Shown: one piece after another, positions 1,314 through 27,996 of the stretch
How positions within the stretch are numbered: the first letter of the stretch is position 1
Layout: each line of letters starts with the position of its first letter
Assembly (NCBI RefSeq): GCF_001543145.1
Contig: NZ_CP014160.1
Span: forward strand, 868,001-932,000
Direction of reading: 5' to 3'
Source: Aerococcus sanguinicola
Lineage (GTDB): Bacteria; Bacillota; Bacilli; Lactobacillales; Aerococcaceae
Length of the DNA: 64,000 nt
The notes under the pieces: model-generated
Seen by the model: only the letters and a program-made list of their open reading frames with translations
Databases searched by the model: none
What the model was told of the DNA's origin: nothing
Position numbers and translations under genes: made by a program

Positions 1314-1381
1314 ATCTTATTTCAGACGCTATTAAAAGTTAATCCTAATAGCCATTATATAATTTATTTGCAATCTACTTC

Positions 1382-1557
1382 TGAGCAGAAGTGGAGCGTT
1401 GAAGTTGGCCCTTAGCCATGAAAAAGCAAGCGATGTGAATTAGGGATAGTAGGCGCCAGCCGTACTAGCCCTTTGAAGCTCGCTAGGTGAGGGGCCTTGA
1501 CCCGAACCGGTGCCATGGCTTTTTAAGGGTCAAATTCAAAAGCGCAGCGGATGCTCA
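1382..1557 (+). repeat. Family B hairpin element, copy 1
   Basis: A ~176 bp imperfect palindrome beginning GAGCAGAAGTGGAGCG and ending GCGGATGCTC. The inner arms CCTTAGCCATG and CATGGCTTTTTAAGG also pair. A second copy lies at 3556-3737 in the opposite orientation. Between the copies the arms differ but still pair (GCCATG/CATGGC here, GCCACG/CGTGGC there), so the folded form appears to be kept. No reading frame is evident. The two copies bracket the DUF3800/methyltransferase cassette. Confidence 0.7.
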
Positions 1558-1567
1558 GCAATACCAT

Positions 1568-2257
1568 TTATTCAAATAAACTCAATTCACTCTTACCTCG
1601 CGGGAAGAAGCGCGTTTTGCCGATGCGGCAGAGTTTGAGGAGGGCTTGGTTGTCGGGATTGGACTTGCCATGGGCTTCGCTGCGGCAGACCCGGAAGACG
1701 GTGTTGGCGAAGATATCCGCGACTTGGATCATGTTCTCATCTTGGGAGTCCTTGTACTCGACATGGACATCGTGGAGCCAGCGCTTTTCGATGGTCATGA
1801 TAATCTGCAGGTATTCCTCCAGTGAATTCAGCGACCGCAAGGCCTGGTTGCGGTTATCGATCATCATCTGCAGGTTTTCTTTTTCATTTTGGCGGTGGCC
1901 CGCAATTTCCTTGATGGCCAAGCCAACGAAATAATTGAAGGTCAGAGAGGGTTTACGCAGGAGATTGGGGTAGACTTGAAAATTATCGATCACCAAATAG
2001 TGGAAGACCGCATCTGTCTCATCCCGCAGGGCCTTGAAGATCTGCGCCTTCATCCCATCCGGCATATTGGACCCCTTGATCTCTTCATCGGCGGTCTTTT
2101 TCGACTGGGACTTATCCAGATAGGACTGCTTATTGCGGCGAAAGATCTCTGCGACATGGTCGGGACGGTCGGTCTGCACAAAGGCCATAACAAAATAACG
2201 ACCGTCTGGGTTCTTTTTGCGGTTGATCGACCCTGATTCATCGACAAATAGTTGCAT
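1568..2257 (-). CDS. DUF3800 domain protein
   Basis: A 229-residue protein that opens with the DUF3800 signature (FVDESGS, residues 5-10) followed by a YFVMAFVQ strand; the acidic D6 and E7 and the late IQVADIFANTVFR segment are the usual conserved points. The fold is thought to be RNase H-like, and these proteins are common in phage, plasmid and defence contexts, but no precise activity is established. The start is fixed by AGGAGGG seven bases upstream, and the stop codon of the preceding short reading frame overlaps this site, so the two are translationally coupled. It ends inside a cassette framed by inverted family B repeats, suggesting acquisition as a unit. Confidence 0.8.
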   Translation of the reverse strand: MQLFVDESGSINRKKNPDGRYFVMAFVQTDRPDHVAEIFRRNKQSYLDKSQSKKTADEEIKGSNMPDGMKAQIFKALRDETDAVFHYLVIDNFQVYPNLLRKPSLTFNYFVGLAIKEIAGHRQNEKENLQMMIDNRNQALRSLNSLEEYLQIIMTIEKRWLHDVHVEYKDSQDENMIQVADIFANTVFRVCRSEAHGKSNPDNQALLKLCRIGKTRFFPRGKSELSLFE

Positions 2258-3555: not shown

Positions 3556-3737
3556 TGAGCATCCGTTCTGCTTTTGAATTTGGTCCTTAAAAAGCCACGG
3601 CACCGGCTCGAGCCAAGGTCTCTCGCCTAGCAAGACTTAAACGGCTAGTACGGCTAAAAGATTAGCCTACTAGCCGTAATTCGCTTTGCTTGCTTTTTCG
3701 TGGCTAAGGACCAACTTCAACGCTCCACTCCTGCTCA
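3556..3737 (-). repeat. Family B hairpin element, copy 2 (inverted)
   Basis: On the minus strand it reads GAGCAGGAGTGGAGCGTTGA ... GCCGTGGCTTTTTAAGG ... GGATGCTC and is clearly homologous to the copy at 1382-1557 in opposite orientation. The central part differs (it includes a GGCTAGTA/TACTAGCC pairing), but both long arms are kept. The rest of the gap 3447-3853 shows no convincing gene. Confidence 0.7.
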
Positions 3738-3799: not shown

Positions 3800-3831
3800 A
3801 CAAAAAGCTCCCGCGCTGAGGAGCTTCTTGT
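3800..3831 (-). terminator. Terminator of the small-peptide operon
   Basis: On the minus strand GCTCC-TCAGCGC-GGGAGC is followed by TTTTTGT, 23 bases after the stop of the last peptide gene. Confidence 0.65.
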
Positions 3832-3853
3832 TTTCTTACACTAAACGATACTA

Positions 3854-4018
3854 CTATTCAAAAGGATTGATCTGCTCATAAGAGTCGTAACCTGCCTGGT
3901 AGGACGCTTTATACTCATCAAAGTTATTATAAAGGTCTACGCCAAAGGACAAGAGACCCATCACAACCAAAGCAATCAATAGCTTAATCAGGAGTGAATT
4001 TCTTTCTTCGGCTTTCAT
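3854..4018 (-). CDS. Small single-helix peptide, family member 1 (54 aa)
   Basis: ATG at 4018 with a strong GAGGAGG site. The peptide has a charged N-terminus (MKAEERN), one hydrophobic helix (about residues 9-26, LLIKLLIALVVMGLLSFG) and a polar tail VDLYNNFDEYKASYQAGYDS followed by YEQINPFE. The tail is nearly identical to the gene at 4099-4260 (shared AGYDSYEQI-PF plus a terminal acidic residue). The N-in/C-out layout suggests an exposed or released tail. It could be a signalling pheromone, a bacteriocin-like peptide or a small membrane protein; no known family is recognised. Last gene of the leftward operon driven from the direct-repeat promoter at 5099-5161. Confidence 0.7.
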   Translation of the reverse strand: MKAEERNSLLIKLLIALVVMGLLSFGVDLYNNFDEYKASYQAGYDSYEQINPFE

Positions 4019-4098
4019 AAGACACCTCCTCATTCTGACAACAAGTTGTCTTTGAGCAAGAATTTAAAGACTAGCCAGTCCCAGCTAGGGGCCTTCCC

Positions 4099-4260
4099 CT
4101 AGTCAAAAGGACTGATCTGCTCATAAGAGTCATAGCCTGCCTGGTAGGCTTCCCGGTAGGTATCGCCATTCCGGTAAAGATCGACACCTATACAGACCAA
4201 GGCCAGGACAATGAGAACCATAATAAACTTAGCTAGAGGACTGACTTTTTTATCTGTCAT
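4099..4260 (-). CDS. Small single-helix peptide, family member 2 (53 aa)
   Basis: Two adjacent ATGs (4263 and 4260) follow AGGAGG; the second has the better spacing. Layout: MTDKKVSPLAK, a hydrophobic helix (about residues 12-25), then GVDLYRNGDTYREAYQAGYD and SYEQISPFD. It shares DLY-N-D and AYQAGYDSYEQI with member 1 and G-DLYRN with member 3, so the three are paralogues. Strong conservation of the tail compared with the helix implies that the outward part is functional. No double-glycine leader and no cysteine pair for a cyclic AIP are seen. Confidence 0.7.
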   Translation of the reverse strand: MTDKKVSPLAKFIMVLIVLALVCIGVDLYRNGDTYREAYQAGYDSYEQISPFD

Positions 4261-4270
4261 CATACACCTC

Positions 4271-4483
4271 CTAGGCCCTGTGAGCCTGCCGCCAACGACG
4301 ATAGCGGAGACTAATTTCCAAGGCTAAAGCCACAAAAAAGATAAAAGTTAAGATGGATTTGTAATCTTCCCAAACAAGCAGGGGGTCGCTCTTGGAAAGA
4401 TAAGAGGTCACAATTTGAATGGTCAAGGCAGCTAGCCCGGCATCAAATAGGATTCTTATTTGCTTCTTACGGTCTTCAGGCAT
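4271..4483 (-). CDS. Small membrane protein (about 70 aa)
   Basis: The frame is open from a TTG at 4513, but the AAAGGAGG ribosome site lies inside it, so the ATG at 4483 (MPEDRKKQIRILFDAG) is the likely start. Two hydrophobic helices (about residues 10-25 and 42-58) end in a basic tail RYRRWRQAHRA. It lies between the 94-residue protein and peptide gene 2 on the same strand, with short gaps, and so belongs to the peptide operon. Two-helix proteins of this size often act as bacteriocin immunity or accessory proteins; that role is only an inference from position. Confidence 0.6.
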   Translation of the reverse strand: MPEDRKKQIRILFDAGLAALTIQIVTSYLSKSDPLLVWEDYKSILTFIFFVALALEISLRYRRWRQAHRA

Positions 4484-4517
4484 CTGTGGCACCACCTCCT
4501 TTAATAGGTTCAAAAGC

Positions 4518-4802
4518 TTACAAGGAAAGCCCCCATAAGTTATTGCCTAATTGCTTGTGGTCCAGAAGCTTACGCCAGAGCTCTTTCTCCTCTGCAGAGA
4601 ATTCTAGCTTCTCCGAGCTCTTGACAATCGGAGCTTTTTCTAGGAATTGTTGGATTTGACCCGTTAAGGCCACTCCCTCTGCTTCTTTGACTTCATCTAA
4701 ACTTTCCCGAACAAAACGTGTTGTCCGAGCCTCAGGATGGTTGGCTTCCAAGCTTTGGACCAAATCCTCCAAGCTCTCAGTGAATGATTGTTTTAAATCC
4801 AT
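4518..4802 (-). CDS. Helical protein, possibly bacteriocin-immunity-like (94 aa)
   Basis: ATG at 4802 with GGAAGG at good spacing. The protein is soluble, charged and predicted almost wholly helical, with a C-terminal FSAEEKELWRKLLDHKQL segment followed by NNLWGLSL. Size, four-helix pattern and the late E-L-x-x-L ... GL arrangement resemble class IIa bacteriocin immunity proteins (EntA_Immun group), but similarity is weak by eye. It is the second gene of the operon that begins with peptide gene 3. An immunity role beside LytTR-controlled small peptides would be the usual logic of a bacteriocin locus; a profile search is needed to settle it. Confidence 0.55.
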   Translation of the reverse strand: MDLKQSFTESLEDLVQSLEANHPEARTTRFVRESLDEVKEAEGVALTGQIQQFLEKAPIVKSSEKLEFSAEEKELWRKLLDHKQLGNNLWGLSL

Positions 4803-4858
4803 AATGGGCCTTCCTTTCTCAGTAAGCGTATCAACAATAAATCTTTCATCACCTTTAT

Positions 4859-5017
4859 CTAGTCGGTAGATTCCGGTACCACGCGGGTACTTTGGTAACC
4901 TTCCACTAAAGCATCGAAATTGCGGTATAAATCAGCTCCTAGGCATAAAATCGCTAAGACAATTAAAAACAGGATAAATCGTTTCAATCCATTGTGCTTG
5001 TCATCCTTTGTCCCCAT
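4859..5017 (-). CDS. Small single-helix peptide, family member 3 (52 aa)
   Basis: The ATG at 5017 follows AGGAGGTAGTCGA; a longer frame upstream has no ribosome site. Layout: MGTKDDKHNGLKR, hydrophobic helix FILFLIVLAILCLG, then ADLYRNFDALVEGYQSTRVV and PESTD. It keeps the DLYRN-D-----YQ core of members 1 and 2 but has a different C-terminus. It is the first gene after the direct-repeat promoter at 5099-5161, the position at which the inducing peptide of LytTR systems is often encoded. Confidence 0.7.
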   Translation of the reverse strand: MGTKDDKHNGLKRFILFLIVLAILCLGADLYRNFDALVEGYQSTRVVPESTD

Positions 5018-5098
5018 TCGACTACCTCCTTTTGCTGTGACAAAGTTAGCCAAAAACTTATTATTTTTGTTGGCTTTGCACCTGAATCTTACAATCCT

Positions 5099-5161
5099 AG
5101 TATAGCAAAAAACTATGTTAGCGTTTTAAATTCATCATATCTGGTCGTTTTTTCATCATAT
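5099..5161 (-). promoter_or_regulatory. LytTR-type direct repeats and promoter for the peptide operon
   Basis: Two copies of TTCATCATAT (plus strand, 5131-5140 and 5152-5161) lie 21 bp apart, the two-turn spacing used by AgrA/ComE/PlnC-like LytTR regulators. Reading leftward, an extended -10 (TGCTATACT, 5107-5099) follows. The arrangement is repeated exactly at 7686-7748: same repeats, same 21 bp period and the same 18 bp between the GATGAATTTAA edge and the extended -10. Likely target of the response regulator at 6575-7339. Confidence 0.8.
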
Positions 5162-5192
5162 CCGGTTCTTTTGAACTTATTTATAGCATTAA

Positions 5193-5221
5193 TTGACTTT
5201 TATTTAAGATTTCCTTATGAT
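5193..5221 (+). promoter_or_regulatory. Promoter of the histidine kinase gene
   Basis: TTGACT (5193-5198) and TATGAT (5216-5221) are separated by 17 bp. The kinase ATG is only about 15 bases past the predicted start of transcription and lacks a good ribosome site. Confidence 0.55.
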
Positions 5222-5242
5222 AAATGTACATTAATTCACTAG

Positions 5243-6559
5243 ATGGGAGTGACTACTATCCCTTATTATTTAGCACTTCTCAACGCGACGATACAAGCTA
5301 TTTTGTATACGTCTTTGCCTATTTTTTCTTTGAAGACTAACCATCCTTTGACCAAGACACTCATGGTTAGTTTCACCTATCTATTCTTTCAAGGCATGCT
5401 AAGGGAATTAGTTCATTTCCAATCCTTGGCCACGGTTCTTGTCATTCTTTTTCTCTTCTTTCTTCTGCAAAAAAATTCAGAGAACGATTACTTACTTCTA
5501 AATTTTTTATTATTAAATCATATTTTCCATGCGATGGTCAGGTTAGCTTGCTTTGCTCTTCCCATGAACCTGCTTCAAATCGAAGGCACAGATTTATTTC
5601 TAAGCTTTTGGTTCTTAGAAATAGGGGTGACTTGGGCTAGTTATTACCATATTCGTCAAGATGGCAGTCTTTTTCGACTCTTTAAGGGAATTTTTAACGA
5701 TCGAATATTCACGATTCCTCTCTTATGTTTTATTGGTCTGACCATTCTCTCTGACTTCTTTTACCAAAATCCCAACTTATCTTATGCCAAGGTCTTAATG
5801 GGCCTGCTCACTTTCATGGCCTTTCAACTCTTACTCGCCCTCCTCCTCGCCTTCCTCTACTACCGGCGCAAGATAGCGGACCAGGCGGCTGAGTCCCAGG
5901 CCTTGCGAACGGAAGACTTGGCCCTCTACCTGGACCGCTTGAAAGATAATCAGAACAGTATTCGAAAGATCCGCCACGACCTCAATGACCTCTTGTCCTT
6001 GTCCCAATTGATGGTCCGCGACCAGGACTTCGACCACTTGGCAGACTACCTAGACAAGTTGTCGACCTATGTGAAAGAAGAGATGCCCCAGGAGACTTCA
6101 TCCAACCTGGCCGACCTCCAGCAGATTGAAGACCAGGACCTGCGCTATCTCCTCATGTCCAAGCTCTTGGAGTGGGAGAAGGCGGGGATTCCCTACCACT
6201 TCGAATGCTTCTATCCTCTGAAGACTCTGCCGATCAACAGCTTCGACCTCATGCGCTGTCTGGCGATCCTGCTTAATAATGCCTCTGAAGGCCGGCAAGC
6301 GGCGCGTCCCAGCCATGAAGAGATGATCGACATCCTCATGCTGGCCGATGACCAGGGTCTGGAGATCCAGGTGACCAATCCCAGTCCTGCGATTACAGTC
6401 CAGGAAGCCAAGCAGACCGGCTTTTCTACCAAGGAGGGCCATCGCGGACTAGGCCTGACCAACCTGGAAGAGATCCTCAGCGCCTATCCCAATGCCCTCC
6501 TCAACTTGACCTATCAGGAGGGCCGCTTCCATGCCCAACTCTACCTGACCTATCTCTAG
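5243..6559 (+). CDS. Sensor histidine kinase, AgrC/ComD (HPK10, GHKL) type
   Basis: A 438-residue sensor. The first ~205 residues form six or seven membrane segments, as in AgrC-like peptide receptors. A coiled linker leads to the phosphoacceptor box IRKIRHDLNDLLSL with H245. The ATPase domain has the N-box LAILLNNASEG (N345/N346) and the G-box HRGLGLTNLEE (around residues 400-410); GHKL kinases of this class lack other boxes. The ATG at 5243 has no clear ribosome site, so GTG at 5249 is an alternative. The response regulator follows after 15 bases. The expected ligand is a secreted peptide; the three small peptide genes transcribed away from this gene are the obvious candidates (inference). 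GC content rises sharply in the second half of the gene, suggesting a mosaic or transferred sensor part. Confidence 0.85.
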   Translation: MGVTTIPYYLALLNATIQAILYTSLPIFSLKTNHPLTKTLMVSFTYLFFQGMLRELVHFQSLATVLVILFLFFLLQKNSENDYLLLNFLLLNHIFHAMVRLACFALPMNLLQIEGTDLFLSFWFLEIGVTWASYYHIRQDGSLFRLFKGIFNDRIFTIPLLCFIGLTILSDFFYQNPNLSYAKVLMGLLTFMAFQLLLALLLAFLYYRRKIADQAAESQALRTEDLALYLDRLKDNQNSIRKIRHDLNDLLSLSQLMVRDQDFDHLADYLDKLSTYVKEEMPQETSSNLADLQQIEDQDLRYLLMSKLLEWEKAGIPYHFECFYPLKTLPINSFDLMRCLAILLNNASEGRQAARPSHEEMIDILMLADDQGLEIQVTNPSPAITVQEAKQTGFSTKEGHRGLGLTNLEEILSAYPNALLNLTYQEGRFHAQLYLTYL

Positions 6560-6574
6560 AAAGGAGGCCCAGCT

Positions 6575-7339
6575 ATGCACCCCGTTTATCTCTTAGAGGA
6601 TAATCCCAGCCAGCTCCAAGCCATCACAGGCATCATCGAAGACTACATCCTCTTCCATGACGCCAGCTTCTACTTGGCCAAGGCCAGCAGTGACCCCCAA
6701 GCCATTGTGGCGGCTTTCCCCGACCAGCCTAGCCAACCAGGCCTCTACTTCCTAGACATCGAAATCGAGGGCCAGGCAGAAGGTCTAGCCCTGGCCCAAG
6801 AGATCAAGCACTTAGACCCCTTCGGACGGATTGCCTTCATCACCGCCCACCCCTCCTATGCGCCCCTGACCCTCAAACACCACCTGGAGCCCCTGGCCTA
6901 TATCCACAAAGAAGATTTCGACAGCTTGCGCCAAGAGATCATCATCTGCTTCGAGCTCTTCTACCAGCGCCTCTATCCTGGCCAGGAAACAAAGACGCCC
7001 AACATCCAAATTAAGTCGGGCTCACAAACCTATCTCGTCGACCCAAAAGACCTCTTCAGTATCCAAACCACCCAGAAGCCCCATATCCTAGAGTTCACTA
7101 CCCGGTCCAGCACCCTACAAAGCTACGGTGCCCTCAAAGACTTCGACCAACTTCCCGGCTTCTTCCGCCTCTCCCAGTCCGCCCTCGTCAACCTAGACTT
7201 AGTCGACCAGGTCGCCCCGCTTAAACGCCGGGTAACCCTAAGCAACGGCCAAGTCTTCAGCTTCTCCCGCAAGTACAGAGCGAGCCTCAACCAAGCCCTG
7301 GCTGAGCGGAAAGCTCGGTCTGACCAAAAAGACAATTAA
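6575..7339 (+). CDS. LytTR response regulator (AgrA/ComE type)
   Basis: A 254-residue regulator starting at an ATG with AAAGGAGG upstream. The N-terminal receiver domain has acidic E8/D9, the phosphoacceptor D61 in YFLDIEIEG, T90 in AFITAH and K112 in YIHKED. The C-terminal LytTR DNA-binding domain covers about residues 145-245 (IQIKSGSQTYLVDPKDLFSI ... FFRLSQSALVNLDLV ... FSFSRKYRASL). This domain binds direct repeats spaced two helical turns apart, and two such pairs flank the kinase/regulator genes (5131-5161 and 7718-7748). Together with the kinase it forms one regulatory operon that most likely controls both peptide transcription units. Confidence 0.88.
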   Translation: MHPVYLLEDNPSQLQAITGIIEDYILFHDASFYLAKASSDPQAIVAAFPDQPSQPGLYFLDIEIEGQAEGLALAQEIKHLDPFGRIAFITAHPSYAPLTLKHHLEPLAYIHKEDFDSLRQEIIICFELFYQRLYPGQETKTPNIQIKSGSQTYLVDPKDLFSIQTTQKPHILEFTTRSSTLQSYGALKDFDQLPGFFRLSQSALVNLDLVDQVAPLKRRVTLSNGQVFSFSRKYRASLNQALAERKARSDQKDN

Positions 7340-7386
7340 AAATCCGTCACTTGCCCTTCTTATTAGGCTGTGACGGATTTTTTAAT
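7338..7386 (+). terminator. Terminator of the kinase/regulator operon
   Basis: AAATCCGTCAC ... GTGACGGATTT followed by TTTAAT starts at the stop codon. It is almost identical to the terminator at 7768-7816, although the two end different transcription units. Confidence 0.85.
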
Positions 7387-7474
7387 AAGAAAAAGCCCCT
7401 AGCTAGGAGGAGCTTTTGGAAAATATATTACGTTTTCGGCACTGAGCTTTGGGGTCTATGTGAGTGGATAGCCT

Positions 7475-7606
7475 CTAAAGCGAATTAAAGCCTGCTTCTA
7501 AACCTGCCACAATCGCATCCAAGTTGGAGATAATGGCCAGGGCAAAGACTAAGAAAAGAGCTGCAAGCCCTACACTTATTAAGCAATCTTTTTCTTTAAC
7601 TGTCAT
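7475..7606 (-). CDS. Small hydrophobic peptide, outlying member (43 aa)
   Basis: ATG at 7606 behind GAGGAGG. MTVKEKDCL, one hydrophobic helix (about residues 10-27), then SNLDAIVAGLEAGFNSL. The N-charged, single-helix, short-tail layout matches the three peptides at 3.8-5.0 kb, and the tail keeps an LD-----G-EAG pattern, but sequence identity is low. It is transcribed alone from the second direct-repeat promoter and is bounded by two near-identical terminators, so it is a single-gene unit of the same regulon. Candidate pheromone or effector peptide. Confidence 0.65.
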   Translation of the reverse strand: MTVKEKDCLISVGLAALFLVFALAIISNLDAIVAGLEAGFNSL

Positions 7607-7685
7607 GTTGATTCCTCCTCTCACTAGCTTATGATTAGAAGTGGTTAGCTTGCTTCTTTTAAACCGTCTCCTGATCGTTAAGATT

Positions 7686-7748
7686 AGTTTATCACCAAAA
7701 ATGAGTAAATACTTAAATTCATCATATGTGGTCGTTTTTTCATCATAT
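7686..7748 (-). promoter_or_regulatory. Second LytTR-type direct-repeat promoter
   Basis: TTCATCATAT at 7718-7727 and 7739-7748 (plus strand, 21 bp period), then 18 bp and the extended -10 TGATAAACT read leftward (7694-7686). The geometry is identical to 5099-5161. It drives the peptide gene at 7475-7606. Confidence 0.8.
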
Positions 7749-7767
7749 TTGGTAATTTTTCCCTAAT

Positions 7768-7816
7768 ATAAAATCCGTCACCTGCCATTCTTAAATGGTG
7801 TGACGGATTTTCTTTT
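7768..7816 (-). terminator. Terminator of the kdgT-like gene
   Basis: AAATCCGTCAC ... GTGACGGATTTT hairpin with A/T runs on both sides, directly after the permease stop; nearly the same sequence as 7338-7386. Confidence 0.8.
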
Positions 7817-9024: not shown

Positions 9025-11304
9025 ATGCAAACATCAATTATCGGTTACCCGCGCATCGGGGCCCTCAGAGAACTCAAATTCCAAACTGAAAAATACTTCC
9101 GTCATGAAATTAGCGAGGCCGACCTCCAGGAGACGGCCCGGCAGATTCGCCAGGACCAGTGGCTCAAGCAGAAGGCGAGCGGCTTGGACTTCATCCCATC
9201 CAATGACTTCTCCTTCTACGATGGCTTCCTAGATACGGCGGTCCTCTTCAACATCGTGCCCAAGCGCTACCAGGACCTCCAAGTCTCTGACCTAGACAGC
9301 TACTTCGCCCAGGCCCGGGGCTACCAGGGAGAAGCGGGCGACGTTAAGGCCCTGGCCATGAAGAAGTGGTTCAACACCAACTACCACTACATGGTCGCCG
9401 AGATTGAGGACGATACCGTGGTCAAGCTGGCCAACAGCCGGGTGGTCGACCACTACCGGGAAGCCAAGGCCCTGGGCGTTGAGACCCAGCCTAGCCTCAT
9501 TGGTCCCTTCACCCTGCTCAAGAAGCTCCGCTATCTGGGCCAGAAGACCGCCCAAGACTTCAAGGCAGACCTCAGCCAAGCCTATAGCCAACTCCTCCAA
9601 ACTTTAGCAGCTGAGGGCGTGTCCTGGGTCCAGCTGGATGAACCCGACCTTGTCTATGACCTTAGCGTGGAAGATATCCAACTCTTCCAAGACCTCTACC
9701 AAGCCATCCTCCCCAAGAAGGGAGCGGTCAAGGTCCTCCTCCAAACTTACTTCGGAGACATCCGCGACATCTACCAGGAAGTCATTGCCCTCGACTTCGA
9801 CGGCATCGGCTTAGACTTCCTAGAAGGCCGGAAGACCCTAGAACTCGTCGAAAAATATGGTTTTCCAAGCGACAAGCTCCTCTTTGCGGGCTTGGTCAAT
9901 GGGAAGAACATCTGGCGCAACCACTACCAGGAGACCTTGGACTTGGTGGACCGCTTAGAAGCTCAAGGGATTGCCCTGGTCTTGAATAGCTCCTGCTCCC
10001 TCCTCCATGTGCCTTATCGTTTGGCCCCAGAAGAGCAATTGAAGGCCGACTACAAGGCCCACTTCGCCTTCGCTGAAGAGAAACTCCAAGAGCTCCAAGA
10101 ACTCAAGCACCTAGCTGGAAGCGACCGTCAGGCTGAGCCCGCCTACCAAGCCAACCAGGCCCTTTTTGCCCACCGGCCGGATGCCGACGATGCTAAGGTC
10201 CAGGCCCGGGTCCAAGGGATTGAAGAAGCGCTCTTCAACCGCCAGCCAGCTTTTGCGGAACGGGAAGCCCTGCAGAAGGCAGCTTTCAACCTGCCCCTCT
10301 TACCAACGACCACCATCGGCTCCTTCCCCCAAACTAAGGAAGTGAAGAAGAACCGGTCCGACTTCAAGAAGGGGCTCATCAGCCGGGAAGCCTATGAAGA
10401 CTTCAACCGCCAAGCTATCGATGACTGCCTCCGCCGCCAAGAGGAGATTGGCCTCGATGTCCTGGTCCACGGGGAATTCGAACGCAATGACATGGTGGAA
10501 TACTTCGGGGAACGGCTCCAGGGCTATCTCTTCACCCAGTATGCCTGGGTCCAGTCTTACGGGACTCGCTGTGTGAAGCCACCGATTATCTGGGGCGACA
10601 TCTCCCGTCCCCAAGCCATGACCGTCCCTTGGTCAACCTATGCCCAGAGTCGGACCGAGCACCTGGTCAAGGGCATGTTAACCGGTCCTGTAACCATCCT
10701 CAATTGGTCCTTCCCACGTGAAGATATCTCCTTGAAGACCTCAACCTACCAGATTGCCCTGGCCATCCGCGATGAAGTCCTGGACCTGGAAGCCCAGGGG
10801 ATCCGCATCATCCAGATCGATGAAGCGGCCCTGCGCGAGAAGCTCCCCCTCCGCCAAACGGACTGGTACAGTCAATACCTCGACTGGGCCATCCCCGCCT
10901 TCCGCCTGGTACACAGCGGCGTCCAAGCGACCACCCAAATCCACACCCACATGTGCTATAGCGAGTTTACCGATATTATTCCCGCCATCGACCAGATGGA
11001 TGCCGACGTGATCAGCTTCGAAGCTTCGCGCTCCGACCTCGAAATTCTCGATAGCCTCAAAGCCCAAAACTTCCAGACCGAAGTTGGCCCCGGCGTTTAC
11101 GATATCCACTCCCCTCGTGTCCCTTCCGTCGATGAAATCAAAACCAGCATTAGAAAGATCTTGGACAAGGTCGCCATCCAGAAAGTCTGGATCAATCCTG
11201 ACTGCGGTCTGAAGACACGCGGTTGGGAGGAAACTAGCGCATCCCTCAAGCACCTGGTCCAAGCTACAGAGGAAATCCGCCATGAAAACGAAAGAACTTT
11301 TTAA
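9025..11304 (+). CDS. metE: Cobalamin-independent methionine synthase
   Basis: Full-length MetE (759 residues). It transfers the methyl group of 5-methyltetrahydrofolate (polyglutamate) to homocysteine in the cytosol. The N-terminal half begins [17 protein letters not shown]; the C-terminal catalytic half opens with [17 protein letters not shown]. Zinc ligands are visible in the [10 protein letters not shown] segment (His/Cys) and the late NPDCGLKTR cysteine. The ATG follows AAAAAGGAG. metF overlaps its 3' end by 23 bases, giving a metEF operon in which MetF supplies the methyl donor. A LysR-type operator candidate lies upstream. Confidence 0.96.
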
Positions 11305-12698: not shown

Positions 12699-13991
12699 TT
12701 ATATACCCAAACGTTCAAAGATTTCATCCACCCGTTGGAGGTGGTAGTGGTAGTCGAAAGCATCATCGATCTCTTCAGGACTGAGGAGGTCAGTGATCTC
12801 TTCATTGCCTTCGACGAGTTCGCGGAAGTCGCGCTGGTCGTCCCAGGACTGGGCGGTCAGGGGTTGAACCAGGTCATAGGCGGCTTCGCGGGATAGTCCT
12901 TGGTCCACCAGCTTGAGAAGTAAGCGCTGGCTGTAGATCAAGCCGTGAGTGGCCTGCATGTTCCGCAACATATTGTCTGGGAAAACCGTTAAGTCTTCCA
13001 CAATCTTCCCGAAGCGGCGGATCATGTAATTGACTAGGATGGTGGTATCAGAGAGGATAATCCGCTCCGCGCTGGAATGGGAGATATCCCGCTCATGCCA
13101 GAGGGAGACGTTCTCGTAAGCCGTTACCACATGGCCCCGGCAGACCCGAGCTAGGCCAGTCACATTTTCGCTGGAAATGGGGTTACGCTTATGGGGCATG
13201 GCGCTGGATCCTTTTTGACCCTTGGCGAAGTATTCTTCCACTTCCCGGGTTTCTGACTTCTGGAGATGGCGGATTTCCGTAGCCATGTTTTCAATGGAAG
13301 TGGCGATCAAAGCCAAACAGGCAATATATTCGGCGTGGAGGTCGCGAGGTAAAACTTGGGTAGAAATTTCCTGGGCGCGGATGCCTAAATGGTCGCAGAC
13401 ATAGGCTTCGACGGCAGTTGGCACATTAGCGAAGGTCCCCACAGCTCCGGAAATCTTCCCGGCTTCAACACCCTTCGCCGCATGGTCAAAGCGGTCGATC
13501 TGGCGCTTGATTTCCGAATAATAGCGGGCCATCTTCAAGCCAAAGGTCGTCGGTTCGGCATGAACGCCATGGGTCCGGCCCATGCAGACGGTGTGCTTGT
13601 ATTTTTGGGCTTTCTTTTTCAGGATCTCAAGGAACCAAACCAAATCTTGACGGATAATGTCATTGGCCTGCTTGAGCTGGTAGCCTTGAGCGGTGTCCAC
13701 CACATCAGTCGAAGTGAGGCCATAGTGGACCCACTTGCGCTCTTCGCCTAGGGATTCAGACACACAGCGGGTGAAGGCCACCACATCGTGCCGGGTTTGG
13801 GCTTCGATTTCTTGGATGCGGTCGACATCGAAGCTTGCCTTGGCACGGATTTTTTTAACATCCTCTTGGGGAATTTCGCCAAGCTCAGCCCAGGCTTCGG
13901 CTGCTAGGATTTCAACTTCTAGCCAGCATTTGTAGCGGTTATCATCGGACCAAACTCGGGCCATTTCGGGACGGGTATAGCGTGGAATCAT
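12699..13991 (-). CDS. purB: Adenylosuccinate lyase, operon copy
   Basis: A 430-residue lyase of the fumarase/aspartase superfamily. It acts twice in AMP synthesis: SAICAR to AICAR, and adenylosuccinate to AMP. The signature loop [10 protein letters not shown] carries the mobile catalytic region; the [10 protein letters not shown] and [10 protein letters not shown] blocks contain the other active-site residues. Its ATG overlaps the purD stop (ATGA), so it is the translationally coupled last gene of the pur operon. A second copy with one amino-acid difference lies at 26365-27657. From 13165 to 13907 the two genes are identical by eye, while the downstream third carries many silent differences, the signature of recent gene conversion. 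Confidence 0.96.
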
Positions 13992-27804: not shown

Positions 27805-27825
27805 AGGGGAGAAATAAGAATAAAC

Positions 27826-27996
27826 CTTGTTAGGTGAGGTTACTGTATTAGAGAGACGCCACTGCCCAGAAACATCCAAAGATGCCAACGGGTCAGCAGA
27901 AATTCTCGAATTAAGGGATTTTCTAATGTGGCTGGAGCTACTCCTATGCTAATAAGTGCTAAAACTATGCGATGAGGTGTTTGCCGACTACTCCTG
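27826..27996 (+). promoter_or_regulatory. M-box (ykoK) magnesium riboswitch
   Basis: The leader keeps the diagnostic M-box segments in order: GTTAGGTGAGGTTACTGTAT, AGAGACGCCACTGCCCA, CCAAAGATGCCAACGGGTCA, TTCTAATGTGGCTGGA, and CTATGCTAATAAGTGCTAAA. In this class Mg2+ binding folds the aptamer so that a downstream terminator forms and the Mg2+ importer is switched off. The terminator at 28005-28034 fits this. Confidence 0.9.

Follow-up and report, generated by a model that had tools for sequence, protein, structure and literature searches.

Short single-helix peptides and an immunity-type protein behind paired putative LytTR sites in Aerococcus sanguinicola: a candidate bacteriocin-immunity regulon

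Introduction

The class II bacteriocin systems Blp, Pln and Spp combine a double-glycine (GG) pheromone with a GHKL kinase and a LytTR response regulator, and the agr system directly controls short leaderless helical peptides. Here we describe a locus of Aerococcus sanguinicola in which an AgrC/ComD-like kinase and a LytTR regulator lie between two transcription units that encode four short peptides, p1 to p4, together with a 94-amino-acid (aa) protein of the bacteriocin-immunity type. The locus is part of a stretch of 64,000 nucleotides, here called the window, which corresponds to bases 868001-932000 of a genome consisting of one contig of 2.03 Mb. Positions given without a locus name are those of the window.

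Further relatives of the class II type are the Ubericin K cluster, which belongs to the class II bacteriocin three-component type (PMC8515946, in excerpt), and the pneumococcal 'cheaters', in which immunity is made in response to a rival's pheromone (PMC4739721, in excerpt). Among open-licence PMC papers we recognised none on this locus and none that pairs Aerococcus with LytTR.

Gene organisation and paired promoter sites

The features of the locus are as follows:
3800..3831, minus strand: terminator-like hairpin 3' of p1 (weak, as six such hairpins are found in the region and 5.1 are expected)
3854..4018, minus strand: p1, 54-aa single-helix peptide, in a family with p2 and p3, tail conserved with p2
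4099..4263, minus strand: p2, single-helix peptide of 54 aa (53 from the second ATG)
4271..4483, minus strand: two-helix protein of 70 aa with two hydrophobic stretches
4518..4802, minus strand: 94-aa bacteriocin-immunity-type protein
4859..5017, minus strand: p3, 52-aa single-helix peptide, first gene of the operon
5131..5166, minus strand: putative LytTR site of the p3 operon, 36 bp, with the -10 box TATACT 26 nt further on
5193..5221, plus strand: promoter-like TTGACT-17-TATGAT of kinase and regulator, identical in the relative
5243..6559, plus strand: AgrC/ComD-like membrane histidine kinase (HATPase_c_5), 438 aa
6575..7339, plus strand: LytTR response regulator, 254 aa
7475..7606, minus strand: p4, 43-aa single-helix peptide, in a unit of its own
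7718..7753, minus strand: putative LytTR site of p4, 36 bp, same repeat and spacing, with the -10 box TAAACT 26 nt further on

The eight open reading frames (ORFs) were confirmed in frame and with ATG starts both in the window and in a relative, Aerococcus sp. HMSC062A02 (locus L030, genome G007), which has the same gene order and in which all eight frames are intact. The description of two short-peptide units flanking an AgrC-like kinase and a LytTR regulator, given in an initial annotation made from the window sequence, is borne out by these intact and conserved frames. The first minus-strand unit reads p3, 94-aa protein, two-helix protein, p2 and p1; p4 is the second, behind the plus-strand kinase and regulator. 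The two-helix protein of the annotation was likewise found in the operon. Its own Shine-Dalgarno sequence sits within a longer ORF with a TTG start, and the 70 aa are counted from the likely start. Shine-Dalgarno-like sequences precede seven of the eight ORFs, the exception in both genomes being the kinase.

Both minus-strand units are preceded by a direct-repeat site, TTCATCATATNNGGT-NN-TTTTTTCATCATATNNGGT. Allowing up to three mismatches, this pattern has two matches in the 2.03-Mb genome, both perfect and both at the locus, and the reversed control pattern has none. In the direction of the genes the half-sites read ATGATGA(A/C), with a spacing of 21 bp. Both sites are kept in the relative with 1 and 2 mismatches, the first half-site of its p4 site being degenerate. 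In four of four promoters from the two genomes the -10 box (TATACT, TAAACT, TATACT and TAGACT) lies exactly 26 nt past the second half-site. No good -35 box is visible in these promoters, which would fit the expectation for activator-dependent promoters. Such paired sites of one type were absent from the initial annotation and are new here; they make the LytTR control of the peptides that it proposed probable, and judging from the sequence the LytTR system probably controls both peptide units through them. As only two sites exist in the genome, the regulon appears small. Kinase and regulator have their own promoter-like sequence, the same in the relative, so the pair is probably always made; promoter-like sites number 9 in the region against 5.4 expected.

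Looser repeats of the same build, with 7-8 mismatches, occur near LytTR kinases in two genomes from the same family but a different genus. Other LytTR systems of the family (L027 and L028 at about 9200-9900, L019 at about 7000) adjoin, by eye, proteins with a Sec leader, and two of these systems have CGTCATTTTCGA-like repeats.

The short peptides

In p1-p3 a charged start (net +1 to +2) leads into a hydrophobic core of 15 residues, which is followed by a tail that is acidic (net -3 to -5). In p4 the start is neutral, the core has 20 residues and the tail is short (net -2). The net charges of the whole peptides p1-p4 are -4, -2, -1 and -2. A small residue (G, once A) is found near the end of the hydrophobic core in p1-p3 and their relatives. 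One cysteine is present in p4, at residue 8, and one each within the hydrophobic core of the window's p2 and p3; p1 has none. The structure model of p2 shows a helix at residues 9-31 (23 residues) followed by a tail helix at 33-48, with a mean predicted local distance difference test score (pLDDT) of 75 and a predicted template modelling score (pTM) of 0.45. The charge pattern suggests that the N-terminus is inside.

The initial annotation had noted a shared core in p1-p3 and a likeness of the p1 and p2 tails, and both hold. Alignment z scores are more than chance for p1/p2 (15.8), p2/p3 (10.5) and p1/p3 (7.3). Identity of p1 and p2 is 19/27 in the tail and 9/26 before it, and that of p2 and p3 is about equal in the two halves (11/22 and 13/26). 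We regard p1-p3 as one peptide family, seen only in Aerococcus. The grouping of all four peptides as a set held for these three. For p4 the z scores are marginal (3.5 with p2 and 2.8 with p3, the p1 pair not included), and its two sequences reached E-values of 0.05 and 0.27 against the p1-p3 profile, among 77 short ORFs. It appears alike to p1-p3 in build and promoter only, its homology not being demonstrable at this level.

Searches of p1-p4 and the two-helix protein against Pfam and NCBIfam gave weak matches only, none over the cut-off, and those against PHROGs likewise weak matches only. The two-helix protein, for example, matched Phage_holin_2 with 14.7 bits (cut-off 32), and p4 matched phrog_20930, a family of unknown function, with an E-value of 0.0048.

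Short single-helix peptides also occur elsewhere near LytTR genes. Peptides of 43-49 aa with an IYxxGxxxG tail form a different family near LytTR kinases in one genome, G156 (L118:9514-9663; L132:13059-13199 and 13346-13477); kinship with the p family was tested and none was found. Two genomes from a single genus also encode short single-helix peptides convergently to a LytTR regulator (L108:7846-8079 and L113:7614-7784). These have a common tail, SFHIIRH, and in L108 repeats 22 bp apart precede the gene; their resemblance to p1-p4 is in build only, and we rejected them as kin.

The 94-aa immunity-type protein

The 94-aa protein had been described as possibly EntA_Immun-like. An initial protein search, limited to shared short words, gave its own cluster alone. 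A six-frame genome search then found relatives in four genomes of family f9, probably the Lactobacillaceae, with E-values of 4e-12 to 1e-25, and a broken copy in a fifth. A wider alignment holds 126 clusters and identifies a lactobacillus family; after these two results the status of an 'orphan' was withdrawn. Names starting with 'Bacteriocin immunity' account for 7 of 24 UniRef names among the matches listed. The motif LGNNLW near the C-terminus is present in 18 of 21 aligned members.

The best Foldseek and VIA matches of the model are PedB, PisI, Mun-im and EntA-im, against a high background for helical bundles; Foldseek gave a probability of 1.00 for PedB, 0.89 for PisI and 0.96 for Mun-im (template modelling scores 0.70/0.78). 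The Pfam model EntA_Immun (PF08951) does not match the protein up to an E-value of 10. Comparing the family alignment with that of EntA_Immun by hhalign gave 60% (E 8.7e-5, 81 columns, 21 + 15 sequences) with the EntA_Immun alignment cleared of a member of the query family, and 98% with that member included. Six shuffled or reversed controls of the 60% comparison gave 0.09-0.37%. Smaller alignments of 7 + 8 sequences gave 13% (E 0.0022). The proposed likeness is supported by the lactobacillus family with immunity names and, tentatively, by the fold and the hhalign result, but not by a match to the Pfam model itself.

In L179 and L180 the gene for the relative of the 94-aa protein is adjacent and divergently oriented to a Sec-leader ORF which by eye resembles a class IIa bacteriocin; the ORF of L180 has no Pfam or NCBIfam match. 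A second immunity-like gene is located roughly 3 kb outside the left edge of the window (L029:6866-7165; EntA_Immun 20.9 bits, cut-off 22.1) and is kept in the relative (L016 from 17048).

Conservation and distribution

Four flanking genes are 95-98% identical to those of the relative, with a synonymous divergence (dS) of 0.24-0.37 and a ratio of non-synonymous to synonymous divergence (dN/dS) of 0.03-0.07. Within the locus dS is 0.32-0.89, and 1.85 (saturated) for p3. The 94-aa protein gave a dN/dS of 0.04 and the other seven genes values of 0.13-0.30, all of them rough values from two genomes and, in part, short genes; for the two-helix protein the comparison started at the TTG, and for p3 at the second codon. 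Identity of p4 to the relative is 93% (40/43). Per 30-residue block the kinase is 83-97% identical, except for residues 91-120 (67%) and 121-150 (53%), which are in the N-terminal, membrane half. These selection values and block identities suggest that the genes of the locus are real and constrained and that the sensor region changes fastest. Between regulator and p4 the relative alone carries an extra ATP-binding cassette (ABC) ATPase and an ABC-2 permease; of 192 NCBIfam matches of the ATPase, the 25 listed are all under their cut-offs, PmtA with 138.6 of 350 bits among them.

An orthologous regulator (85% identity) was found in 1 of 75 other genomes of the family, and p1-p3 are confined, among the 76 family genomes, to the 2 that have this regulator. 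Neither an orthologous regulator nor a convincing p1-p3 peptide was detected in the 74 remaining family genomes. The linkage of peptides and kinase/regulator is thus constant in this sample, with both genomes that have the regulator keeping all peptides. In the order sample p1-p3 were found in 2 of 395 genomes. Weak profile matches in seven other genomes (four in the family search with E 5e-4 to 8e-3, three in the order sample with E about 2e-4) were rejected as chance, since the frames around six of them measure 220-696 aa and the seventh is interrupted by three stops.

Against 5.8 billion proteins the profile gave 8 matches at E ≤1, the window's own included. All those with a source name are Aerococcus, and two of the 8 are unnamed. 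This search scored only 126 candidates sharing short words with the query, so more distant relatives of p1-p3 may exist. The named relatives of the peptides and of the regulator are Aerococcus, A. sanguinicola among them; in one strain of this species the locus tags 07740, 07755 and 07760 are p3, p2 and p1, which fits the same operon order. The two-helix protein is convincing in 2 of 295 order genomes, both Aerococcus, with a third match weak and partial (E 0.0015).

Kinship of the kinase and search for a ligand

The regulator matches LytTR with 43.8 bits (cut-off 22.6), and its receiver domain with 25.6 bits is under the cut-off of 30.2. Both proteins missed the NCBIfam cut-offs for AgrC (kinase 78.7 of 500) and AgrA (regulator 111.7 of 400). 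At an E-value of 1e-20, 61 of the 395 order genomes have relatives of the kinase, the window's genome and G007 included. In the tree of these kinases the pair made up of the window's kinase and its orthologue falls on the side (39 rows) that holds all 16 loci linked to a C39 exporter, the other side having 0 of 26. The supports are 99/99 and 98/93; the branch of the window pair is long, and the midpoint root is for drawing only. The tree covers 65 of 66 loci, L147 being dropped by length, and L026, the same place as L109, was left out. Its labels 'C39' (exporter within 6 kb) and 'GG' are pattern-based, and its GG pattern is laxer than the one applied near the relative's kinase, the two disagreeing for some loci. 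Several kinase loci of the order carry GG peptides and immunity genes. By this tree the kinase groups with class II bacteriocin kinases.

The annotation had reported no double-glycine leader and no exporter of the AgrB or ComA type, and wider searches agreed. C39 peptidase had no match in the complete genome, with 8 of 14 control genomes positive. AgrB had none in the whole genome either, its control being weak (1 of 14, under the cut-off). No double-glycine ORF was found by pattern near the relative's kinase or by eye among the window ORFs. The class IIa family Bacteriocin_II had no match in the whole genome and none in the 14 controls, but 2 of 15 Aerococcus genomes were over the cut-off, so that likely bacteriocin producers exist in the genus. 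By eye, Sec-leader YGNGV class IIa-like bacteriocin genes are found in two other Aerococcus genomes (L184:1471-1695 and L185:1468-1695), and 3' of each is a small ORF without Pfam match, which may be an immunity gene.

Interpretation

The immunity-type 94-aa protein, the kinship of the kinase and the acidic tails of the peptides make a bacteriocin-immunity-type regulon our first reading, to which we would give an even chance: the AgrC/ComD-like kinase and its LytTR partner would respond to a peptide, probably from outside, with the helix peptides as membrane-anchored protectors. Going from the observed genes, sites, conservation and kinship of the 94-aa protein and the kinase to a mechanism, we infer outside-peptide sensing, site binding, the orientation of the peptides in the membrane and their protective role. 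The kinase would be made from its own promoter, and its membrane part would bind an outside peptide, most likely a neighbour's pheromone or bacteriocin, which this genome apparently does not make by those of the usual routes that were searched. The regulator would be phosphorylated and then bind the direct repeats, with half-sites 21 bp apart, that lie immediately 5' of the two -10 boxes. From promoter one the 94-aa protein, the two-helix protein, p3, p2 and p1 would be made, and from promoter two p4. The 94-aa protein would act in the manner of immunity proteins, which are believed to bind receptor and bacteriocin (PMC8515946, in excerpt). The peptides would be anchored in the membrane, their N-termini facing the inside of the cell and their acidic tails, which in p1 and p2 are rich in tyrosine, exposed outside, and would help to protect the cell.

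The peptides could instead be precursors of an autoinducing signal, if a membrane protease or signal peptidase freed their C-terminal tails outside and a tail activated the adjacent kinase, raising the peptides further. The loop would be positive, as the peptide genes themselves are behind the putative regulator sites. The greater likeness of p1 and p2 in the tail than before it, the small residue near the end of the core and the divergence of kinase residues 91-150, as expected for a ligand-recognition region, all agree with this, and no other ligand was found, nor an AgrB or C39 route for a self-made one. Against it, there is one kinase for three or four different tails, and the tails vary only modestly between strains. 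The -3 residue rule of signal peptidase disfavours phenylalanine, and the phenylalanine at -3 in two family members, P0006 and P0008, speaks against this enzyme at that point. Moreover, the known SHP and Phr signals, as described in an excerpt of PMC7595303, are exported through PptAB/Eep or Sec and re-imported to act inside the cell. We consider autoinduction unlikely, and slightly more doubtful its full form, in which freed tails are the kinase ligands of a quorum-sensing class without double-glycine leader, AgrB or dedicated exporter, and the precursors are also membrane-anchored parts of the immunity regulon.

A further unlikely reading makes the peptides membrane-active effectors. They would then form a leaderless multi-peptide bacteriocin or a set resembling modulins, to which the 94-aa protein would confer self-immunity and for which the ABC pair of the relative would be the exporter. 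Several peptides of 43-54 aa in one regulon, three of them related, would suit such a set, as would the position of p3, the first gene, directly 5' of the immunity-type gene, and multi-peptide leaderless bacteriocins exist; however, the leaderless type is described as being cationic and of lower hydrophobicity (PMC6131525, in excerpt), whereas p1-p4 have net charges of -1 to -4 and very hydrophobic cores of 15-20 residues. In addition, the window has no transporter beside the locus, and the relative's ATPase stays under the cut-offs in the listed NCBIfam matches, PmtA included. The same transporter, present in the relative only, together with the missing C39, GG pheromone and class IIa matches, might also indicate that a class II bacteriocin quorum-sensing locus has lost pheromone, exporter and bacteriocins and that its remnant is drifting. 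Decay is very unlikely, given eight intact frames in both genomes, dN/dS values of 0.04-0.30, a promoter spacing that is kept and sites kept with 0-2 mismatches.

As this genome seems to be without the usual signal and exporter, either the bacterium listens to others to arm itself, as in the favoured immunity regulon, or there are signal precursors of a new kind. Beyond this, p1-p3 add a peptide family of unknown function, and a lactobacillus immunity-type family that is uncovered by Pfam and NCBIfam is placed in a regulated setting with a defined putative site.

Further observations on the locus and window

In the stretch around the kinase start (window 5222-5262), the ATG has no visible Shine-Dalgarno sequence and only a very short leader 3' of its promoter; as GGGAGTGA lies just within the gene, the true start may differ. 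Terminator-like hairpins (ATCCGTCAC...GTGACGGAT) are alike on either side of p4 (window 7339-7381 and 7768-7811). The relative has like hairpins (L030 8762-8805 and 11083-11124) 3' of the regulator and, by eye, 3' of the permease, so those around p4 may be end points of a gain or loss of the ABC pair. A dispersed repeat, about 180-200 bp long and intergenic, has two copies in inverted orientation in the window (1373-1570 and 3556-3737) and more copies, whole or partial, in L029, L189, L016 and L020. An M-box magnesium riboswitch is located at window 27819-27983 (127.9 bits).

Comparison with known systems

The class II three-component systems (Blp, Pln, Spp and the Ubericin K cluster) are like the locus in the grouping of the kinase, the LytTR regulator, the direct repeats 5' of the controlled promoters and an immunity-type gene in the operon. 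The locus differs from them in that no GG pheromone, C39 transporter or class IIa bacteriocin was found and single-helix peptides are present instead. Its half-sites are 21 bp apart, and those of the Ubericin K cluster 32-33 bp (PMC8515946, in excerpt).

Staphylococcal agr with the phenol-soluble modulins and their exporter Pmt resembles the locus in an AgrA/AgrC-like pair and short leaderless helical peptides, but here AgrB has no match, the AgrC and AgrA cut-offs are far off, and the peptides are acidic with one hydrophobic span. The leaderless multi-peptide bacteriocins aureocin A70 and garvicin KS also consist of several short peptides without leader; leaderless bacteriocins are cationic and less hydrophobic in the excerpt of PMC6131525, whereas p1-p4 are not cationic.

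The EntA_Immun/pediocin-like proteins PedB, Mun-im, EntA-im and PisI share size and helical-bundle model with the 94-aa protein, whose family, like pediocin immunity, has bacteriocin-like genes alongside in two lactobacillus genomes. It differs from EntA_Immun in being below detection by the Pfam model and in its own LGNNLW near the C-terminus.

Pneumococcal blp cheaters are a broken full locus within one species, and at the present locus there was no sign of a disrupted gene for an exporter or a pheromone. By analogy the cheater would be the closest precedent, as it is a listening system able to induce immunity without making the signal (PMC4739721, in excerpt).

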